DNA of 33,001 nt from Candidatus Heimdallarchaeota archaeon (lineage in GTDB: Archaea > Asgardarchaeota > Heimdallarchaeia > Heimdallarchaeales > Heimdallarchaeaceae). Made by a program: the position numbers and the translations under genes. Below the pieces are notes generated by a model. It did not search any database. It was not told the origin of the DNA and was given only the letters and a program-made list of their open reading frames with translations. The stretch is from assembly GCA_023705985.1 (NCBI GenBank), contig BPTO01000018.1:1-33001 (forward strand), given 5' to 3'. Below, in pieces: positions 29,758 through 33,001 of the stretch (its first letter is position 1; the number at the start of each line of letters is the position of its first letter).

Positions 29758-30840
29758 GTGACGAAAAAAGTACGAATAGCTATAGCTGGTTTAGGTAACT
29801 GCGCTTCAGCATTAGTTCAAGGATTAGAATACTATAAAAATGCAGATGCACGTGACTATGTTCCTGGTATCATGCATGTAAAATTCGGTGAGTATCATAT
29901 TTCAGATGTTGAAGTTGTTGCTGCTTTCGAGGTTAGTACTAAAAAGATAGGTAAAGACATCTCAGAAGCAATATGGGCTAAACCCAATTGCTGTGTTAAA
30001 TTTTCAGATGTCCCTAATAAGGATGTCACTGTTCAACCGGGACATATTGAGGATGGGGTTGCACCCCATATGAAAGAGTCTTTCCATTGTTATGACCCTA
30101 AGGAAATAACCTCTGTAAATATCGCAGACGCGTTAAAAGAATCACAAGCTGACGTATTAATCAATTTTTTACCTGTTGGTAGCGAAATTGCTACCCAAAA
30201 GTATGCTCAAGCAGCTTTGGATTCAAATGTAGCTTTCGCAAACGGTATTCCAGCATTTATCGCGTCTAATACAGAGTGGGCACAGAAATTTACTGATAAG
30301 AAAATACCAGTAGCTGGTGATGATATTAAATCACAATTAGGAGCGACCATTTTACATCGAATGCTAGTTAGTCTAGCGCATGATCGTGGAATTAAAATGG
30401 ATGAAACATTTCAGTTAAACATTGGAGGGAACACTGATTTTGAGAATATGAAGAAGGAATACCGATTAACTACTAAAAGGATATCAAAAACAGAAGCTGT
30501 AACAAGCATGATTCCTTATGAAGTTCCTACAAGAATAGGTCCAAGTGACTATGTTCCATTTCTAAACGATGAAAAAATCTGTTATCTATGGTTGAAGGGT
30601 AAAAATTTCGGAGAACAACCTCTAAAGATTCAATTGAAATTATCTGTTCAAGACTCACCAAATAGCGCGGGAGTTATGATAGATGTAGTAAGGTCTTTGA
30701 AAATAGCAAAAGACAGAGGTATAGGAGGACCTTTAGTTGGTGTTTCCAGCTATTTCTTCAAACATCCTCCTAAACAAATACCAGATTCAGAGGCATTCCA
30801 ACTAGTAGAGAAATTCATTAGAGGAGATATAACAAACTGA
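29758..30840 (+). CDS. ino1: myo-Inositol-1-phosphate synthase (canonical copy)
   Basis: 'VRIAIAGLGNCASALVQGLEYY', 'GDDIKSQLGATILHRML', 'QLNIGGNTDFENM', 'RISKTEAVTS', 'IGPSDYVPFL', 'DSPNSAGVMIDVVRSLKIAKDRGIGGP', matching the actinobacterial/archaeal Ino1 pattern. GTG start. Confidence 0.94.
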   Translation: MTKKVRIAIAGLGNCASALVQGLEYYKNADARDYVPGIMHVKFGEYHISDVEVVAAFEVSTKKIGKDISEAIWAKPNCCVKFSDVPNKDVTVQPGHIEDGVAPHMKESFHCYDPKEITSVNIADALKESQADVLINFLPVGSEIATQKYAQAALDSNVAFANGIPAFIASNTEWAQKFTDKKIPVAGDDIKSQLGATILHRMLVSLAHDRGIKMDETFQLNIGGNTDFENMKKEYRLTTKRISKTEAVTSMIPYEVPTRIGPSDYVPFLNDEKICYLWLKGKNFGEQPLKIQLKLSVQDSPNSAGVMIDVVRSLKIAKDRGIGGPLVGVSSYFFKHPPKQIPDSEAFQLVEKFIRGDITN

Positions 30841-30850
30841 GGATGAAATA

Positions 30851-31921
30851 ATGATTGAAAGAAAAATAAGAATCGCTTTAGCTGGAATAGGAAACATAGC
30901 TTCAGGTGTTTTACAAGGTATAGAATACATAAAAGCTTATGAAAATAAAAAAGATTTTTTACTTCATCCTACTATCTTGGGATATGAAGTGAAAGATATT
31001 GCAATCGTTGCTGCTTTTGATGTTGATGCTTCTAAAATAGGTAAAGATATTGTTGAAGCAATTTTTGCTCCCATTAATAGTACTCCAAAGTTTGTAGAAA
31101 TAGACAATTATGGTGTTTCTGTTTTTAAGGGTCCTGTTCTAGATGGTTTATCTGACACGCTTAGAGAAGTAATTCAAATAGCAGAGGGAGATCCTGTAGA
31201 TTTGGTTAAGAAATTAAAAGAAGCGGAAACAGAAATTCTAATCTGTGCTTTACCCTCAGGCGCAGAACTTGCTGTTAAAGCATATGCTCAAGCAGCTCTT
31301 GATGCTGAAGTAGCTTTTGTAAATTGCACTCCAACTTTGATAGCTAGCAATCCTCAATGGGCTCAAAAATTCAAAAAAGCTAATTTATGTCTTATTGGAG
31401 ACGATTTACAATCTTTAGCTGGAGGTACAGTTCTTCACAAAGGATTTTTAGAAGTACTTAATGAACAAGGTATAACTATCAAAGATACTTATCAGCTTGA
31501 TGTTGCTGGTGGTCTTGAAACTCTTAACACTCTTGATGATGATCGAAAGCAATACAAAAGAAAAGTAAAAGAAAGAACAATTCAAGATGCTACACAAAAT
31601 AACATAAACATTGCTAGCGGAACCTCAGATTATTTAGAATTTCTTGGAAACAGGAGAATAGGTCACTTTTGGATATTAGGCGAAGGATTTATGGGGATGC
31701 CTGTGAAAATTGATATGAGATTGGAAACTTTAGATGGTCCCAATGGAGCTGCTACCCTAATAGATGTTATAAGAGCAACTAAATTAGCAATAAATAGGGC
31801 TCATGGAGGACCTATGACTTCAATCAGTTCTTATGGATTTAAAGCTCCTCCCATATCAACCAATAGATATACTGCTAATCAACGGTTTAATGAATATATT
31901 GAAGGAGTAAGACCAGTATAG
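30851..31921 (+). CDS. myo-Inositol-1-phosphate synthase paralog with diverged active-site motifs
   Basis: Co-linear with the upstream copy ('IRIALAGIGNIASGVLQGIEYI', 'AYAQAALDAEVAFVN', 'GPNGAATLIDVIRATKLAINRAHGGP'), but GDDIKSQ becomes GDDLQSL and ISKT becomes KERT. Confidence 0.88.
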   Translation: MIERKIRIALAGIGNIASGVLQGIEYIKAYENKKDFLLHPTILGYEVKDIAIVAAFDVDASKIGKDIVEAIFAPINSTPKFVEIDNYGVSVFKGPVLDGLSDTLREVIQIAEGDPVDLVKKLKEAETEILICALPSGAELAVKAYAQAALDAEVAFVNCTPTLIASNPQWAQKFKKANLCLIGDDLQSLAGGTVLHKGFLEVLNEQGITIKDTYQLDVAGGLETLNTLDDDRKQYKRKVKERTIQDATQNNINIASGTSDYLEFLGNRRIGHFWILGEGFMGMPVKIDMRLETLDGPNGAATLIDVIRATKLAINRAHGGPMTSISSYGFKAPPISTNRYTANQRFNEYIEGVRPV

Positions 31922-32953: not shown

Positions 32954-33001
32954 AGATCGGAAGAGCACACGTCTGAACTCCAGTCACGTGGCCTTATCTC
33001 G
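32954..33001 (+). other. Illumina TruSeq index adapter contamination (AGATCGGAAGAGCACACGTCTGAACTCCAGTCAC + GTGGCCTT + ATCTCG)
   Basis: Exact match to the known TruSeq read-1 3' adapter, followed by an index-like octamer GTGGCCTT (TruSeq index 20) and the start of the constant ATCTCGTATGCC tail. Confidence 0.99.

Follow-up and report, generated by a model that had tools for sequence, protein, structure and literature searches.

The second of two adjacent genes (copy 1 and copy 2) near the end of the analysed 33,001-nucleotide stretch of DNA from a Candidatus Heimdallarchaeota archaeon (contig BPTO01000018.1, hereafter the window) codes, as judged by sequence, for the orthologous member of an ancient group of archaeal paralogs of inositol-1-phosphate synthase, here termed type B, and its product is probably a different working enzyme and not a broken one. 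Type B is new as a variant of an enzyme family that is itself known. With a probability of about 0.5, it would be a catalytically competent NAD-dependent enzyme with an altered substrate or product that works together with copy 1, the type A synthase of the same locus.

As described in the initial annotation, copy 1 and copy 2 are tandem INO1 paralogs, i.e., two intact open reading frames on the same strand separated by 10 bp (Table 1), and BLAST aligns their products with 38% identity across 357 columns (E = 3e-88). Both match PF01658 and Mycobacterium tuberculosis (Mtb) Ino1 (1gr0), copy 1 with 3e-31 and 408 bits, and copy 2 with 5.6e-20 (72 bits versus a cut-off of 27) and 258 bits, respectively. 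No PF01658 genes beyond these two were found in the window's genome (3.6 Mb, about 90% complete). The relatives of copy 2 that carry a name come from Candidatus Heimdallarchaeota genomes, which identifies the window's genome as that of an Asgard archaeon. Copy 1 has every catalytic residue and an Asn/Asp/Lys signature (see below). At the contig end, positions 32954-32987 are an exact 34-base match to the Illumina TruSeq adapter and are followed by index-like bases; window positions 32954-33001 are an assembly artefact, and the last bases are not genomic.

With respect to the catalytic residues, copy 2 had been described as having lost conserved active-site lysines. In the Archaeoglobus fulgidus enzyme (MIPS) the catalytic lysines are K274, K278, K306 and K367, and the lysines of the KxxxK pentapeptide are essential in the enzymes studied (PMC5614600). 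When the residues listed in Table 3 of that paper are mapped with structure 1u1i as the reference, the K367A mutant entry 3qvx pinning K367, the counterparts in copy 2 are K236, K240, R269 and K331. Three of the four lysines are hence kept, and the fourth, a Lys in copy 1, is a conservative Arg in copy 2. Since the pairwise alignment places K240-RIS-K244 of copy 1 opposite K236-RKV-K240 of copy 2, both KxxxK lysines are retained, and the supposed replacement of ISKT by KERT reflects a register slip by one. In the alignment of copy 1 with A. fulgidus MIPS, K367 falls at the FFK-HPP motif, the copy 2 version of which is GFK-APP with K331. All strings quoted for copy 2 (GDDLQSL, KERT and KLAINRAHGGP) are indeed present, and the N-terminal nucleotide-binding part is kept as stated, with the glycine motif GIGNIASGVLQGIEY. 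However, the Lys altered between KIAKDR and KLAINR is none of the four catalytic ones, and the change from Lys to Gln in GDDxK, although real, is not diagnostic since the position is variable: type B has Q, M, E, V, I or L there, and the Lys is also missing in about one in nine type A proteins, in Ari2 and in TM1419. The GDDxK substitution was therefore rejected as the key change, and a loss of catalytic lysines was rejected as an explanation by the alignment to solved enzymes.

Table 1. Positions in the window of the two genes and of selected codons of copy 2.
Feature	Position	Strand	Remarks
Copy 1, inositol-1-phosphate synthase of type A (similar to Mtb Ino1)	29758..30840	+	GTG start, 360 aa
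Copy 2, type B (paralog within the inositol-phosphate synthase family)	30851..31921	+	356 aa
Gln187 of GDDLQS	31409..31411	+	A. fulgidus K227 position; variable, non-diagnostic
Asp217	31499..31501	+	in place of Asn (Mtb N229, A. fulgidus N255)
Glu223	31517..31519	+	in place of Asp (Mtb D235, A. fulgidus D261)
Lys236	31556..31558	+	catalytic Lys kept (Mtb K248, A. fulgidus K274)
Lys240	31568..31570	+	catalytic Lys kept (Mtb K252, A. fulgidus K278)
Arg269	31655..31657	+	in place of catalytic Lys (Mtb K284, A. fulgidus K306)
Asp295	31733..31735	+	kept (Mtb D310, A. fulgidus D332; metal/NAD orientation)
Ile314 of KLAINR	31790..31792	+	in place of second Lys of KIAKDR; outside the four catalytic lysines
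Lys331	31841..31843	+	catalytic Lys kept (A. fulgidus K367)

Three changes from A. fulgidus MIPS to copy 2 had been overlooked, namely N255 to D217, D261 to E223 and K306 to R269. In an alignment of 250 family members, Asp/Glu/Arg occupies these positions in 112/112 type B sequences and Asn/Asp/Lys in type A; as the type labels were assigned from two of the three signature residues, the evidence from these two is partly circular, whereas the remaining one (K to R) and the phylogenetic tree are independent of the labels. Exactly three columns are conserved to at least 85% in both types and yet differ between them, and these are the Asp/Glu/Arg positions, while 28 columns are conserved and identical. 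All three discriminating columns are known active-site positions; N255 contributes to glucose-6-phosphate binding in A. fulgidus MIPS (PMC5614600). In the same alignment, the equivalents of K274, K278, D332 and K367 are invariant among the 112 type B sequences. In the N-terminal glycine-rich NAD motif of type B, G12 and G14 are invariant and N15 nearly so. At the residues expected of EC 5.5.1.4, type B has Arg for K306 and, in Block D (blocks being defined after PMC5614600), Asp and Glu for N255 and D261 (112/112). A close relative (L011) has Asp/Asp/Arg at the signature positions.

In a maximum-likelihood tree of 226 proteins type B is monophyletic, all 82 type B rows being set apart from the others by a branch that has an SH-aLRT of 100, and in an Asgard-only tree the type B branch has an SH-aLRT of 98. 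Type B is present in most Asgard families and in several other archaeal lineages, and most other, i.e., non-Asgard, archaea sampled have only type A. An Asgard-only family was rejected because type B is found in other archaea, and a recent local duplication leading to copy 1 and copy 2 was rejected because the A/B split predates the Asgard families.

The family contains additional variants. A third paralog with the motif DWGG[CS]SDF occurs in the Asgard family f19 (L093:6341-7453, L248-L252, L267-L272), where it is the sole family member in several near-complete genomes; it has Asp in place of Asn255 but keeps Asp261 and Lys306. In many f19 genomes (L144-L148, L247, L255-L266), type A clusters with Mtb Ino1 as well as other archaeal and Patescibacteria sequences and not with native Asgard type A, possibly as a result of gene replacement. 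Outside Asgard, a subgroup of type A (L213, L215, L217, L224, L230-L232) carries GDDVMSQ and NIGGD[TM]DF; the archaeal genomes concerned often have another member of the family beside it, and it could possibly be a further specialisation.

Among 97 Asgard genomes with a completeness of at least 90%, type B was found in 51, and in 50 of these it is accompanied by native type A, the exception being a 91% complete genome (G004). Native type A without type B occurs in six genomes, 12 have only type A of the 1gr0 grouping and never type B (0/12), and 28 have neither native or 1gr0-type A nor type B. The co-occurrence of A and B gives a Fisher p of about 1e-19, a value inflated by kinship among the genomes. 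The survey of Asgard genomes for the tandem pair that had been suggested at the outset finds the pair to be common, but its linkage confined to some lineages. In families f1-f4 and in one f18 genome the order is A-B and the intergenic distance -4 to 31 bp, and in families f19 and f20 the order is B-A and the distance -11 to 116 bp, some tandem pairs overlapping; since tandem pairs exist in both gene orders, the linkage probably arose more than once. In many lineages A and B are unlinked, and on the single contig of one genome (G051) they lie 1.9 Mb apart. Co-occurrence and linkage support a shared pathway and a complex alike.

When the neighbours of type B were clustered and annotated across loci, no common pathway was found among them, the partners being lineage-specific only. 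A UbiA prenyltransferase gene lies near type B in families f12, f13 and f20, and a polyprenyl synthetase gene in f1, f4 and three other loci. In four loci (L205, L207, L210, L211) a bact-PGI_C phosphoglucose/phosphomannose isomerase-like gene is convergent with type B, possibly a hint at the sugar phosphate used. In family f97 (L201, L234, L236, L237), type B is immediately adjacent to genes for Mrp-type antiporters (Proton_antipo_M) and overlaps with them. A MobA-like nucleotidyltransferase gene is found repeatedly beside type A (L092:6260-7048; L094, L098, L139, L145-L148) and perhaps codes for a CTP:inositol-phosphate cytidylyltransferase. As to the proposed link to inositol-lipid headgroups, archaetidylinositol is formed from inositol-1-phosphate in archaea (PMC9385802), and since the window's genome has a gene for a CDP-alcohol phosphotransferase whose nearest relatives of solved structure are phosphatidylinositol-phosphate synthases, a lipid use of inositol-phosphate is plausible in general terms, but no conserved lipid operon was found that ties this phosphotransferase to copy 2.

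In 22 close pairs from genomes of the window's family, dN/dS is 0.045-0.147 for type B and 0.025-0.098 for type A, so that type B is under purifying selection and not in decay. The AlphaFold2 model of copy 2 (pLDDT 92, pTM 0.91) has its best PDB match in 1gr0 (TM 0.85 by query, 0.92 by target), followed in order by Ari2, TM1419 and A. fulgidus MIPS, and from the low dN/dS together with this confident model, type B is a maintained family member with the expected fold. Although copy 2 evolves faster than copy 1 and Arg at the K306 position might abolish catalysis, the reading suggested by lost lysines, namely a duplicate that is dead or in decay, is very improbable, since the reading frames are intact family-wide with dN/dS well below 1 and the active-site residues are invariant over an ancient clade. 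Copy 2 has retained the family's fold and its glycine motif for NAD binding, all catalytic lysines but one, and the aspartate of the metal site, and the fixed swap of Asn to Asp, Asp to Glu and Lys to Arg lies around the sugar-phosphate site. Most likely, type B would perform the same kind of chemistry, i.e., oxidise, aldol-cyclise or isomerise, and reduce, acting on a different sugar phosphate or yielding a different cyclitol phosphate, and copy 2 would serve the same pathway as copy 1. That type B is an undescribed archaeal enzyme family, in Asgard and beyond, whose product is not 1L-myo-inositol-1-phosphate but another cyclitol or sugar phosphate, and that it acts in concert with the ordinary synthase, perhaps in a mixed tetramer, is a tentative proposal falling somewhat short of even odds.

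Against the main reading it can be held that the three swaps, being mild in chemical terms, could modulate the reaction instead of changing it. That they are all conservative and that most catalytic residues stay would also fit an isozyme whose reaction is unchanged and whose specialisation concerns expression, metal or temperature; this is quite unlikely given that type B hardly ever substitutes for type A (1/51 genomes is B-only), that the swap is absolute across distant archaea, and that K306 and N255 were reported to be important in the A. fulgidus enzyme (PMC5614600). Further points against the main reading are the lack of linkage between A and B in many lineages and the neighbours of type B, which differ between lineages and do not point to a pathway. 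Less probable than the main reading is the alternative that type B is a partner subunit in mixed A/B tetramers and tunes the activity or stability of A. The tandem, nearly overlapping genes in both orders, the occurrence of type B almost only alongside native type A and never with 1gr0-type A alone, and the fact that characterised synthases are homotetramers (PMC11348189) are in line with such a role. However, A and B are far apart in many genomes, the tie of B to native A may reflect shared ancestry, and a purely structural subunit would need neither three catalytic lysines nor an invariant new active-site set. The options of a heteromeric partner and of a new reaction had originally been derived from the loss of lysines; this premise falls, but both options survive on the invariant three-residue swap, the co-occurrence and the tandem pairs in both orders.

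If type B makes another cyclitol phosphate, the metabolism of inositol or of polar-lipid headgroups would have an as yet unrecognised branch in archaea, Asgard included, and such a branch would be relevant to how inositol lipids evolved in the closest lineage to eukaryotes. Because annotation by homology would label type B as inositol-3-phosphate synthase, pathways reconstructed in this way may contain errors. Owing to the three-residue signature, the question of specificity lends itself directly to a test by mutagenesis.

No NCBIfam model was found that scores type B above its cut-off, and no paper on the type B paralog was found in a literature search that was thin on subscription journals. 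Amongst known relatives, Mtb Ino1 (1gr0; TIGR03450) matches copy 2 best in both sequence and fold and has the same length, the same NAD motif and the same catalytic lysines in KxxxK and at the C-terminus, but its N229, D235 and K284 are Asp, Glu and Arg in copy 2; with 289 and 453 bits, respectively, copy 2 and copy 1 both score below the equivalog cut-off of 638 bits for the mycothiol Ino1 model TIGR03450. A. fulgidus MIPS (1u1i, 3qvs-3qw2) is about 16% identical to copy 2, which has the same fold and the equivalents of K274, K278, K367 and D332, whereas N255, D261 and K306 are replaced. Thermotoga maritima TM1419 (3cin) shares with copy 2 the fold, KxxxK and the missing GDDxK lysine and has KIALDR, but it retains the Asn, Asp and Lys and is distant in sequence. 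Ari2 (6k96), a five-membered cyclitol phosphate synthase on a long branch of unsure placement in the tree, is a family member named as the maker of another cyclitol phosphate; like copy 2 it is without the GDDxK lysine, but it retains the Asn, Asp and Lys which are altered in type B.
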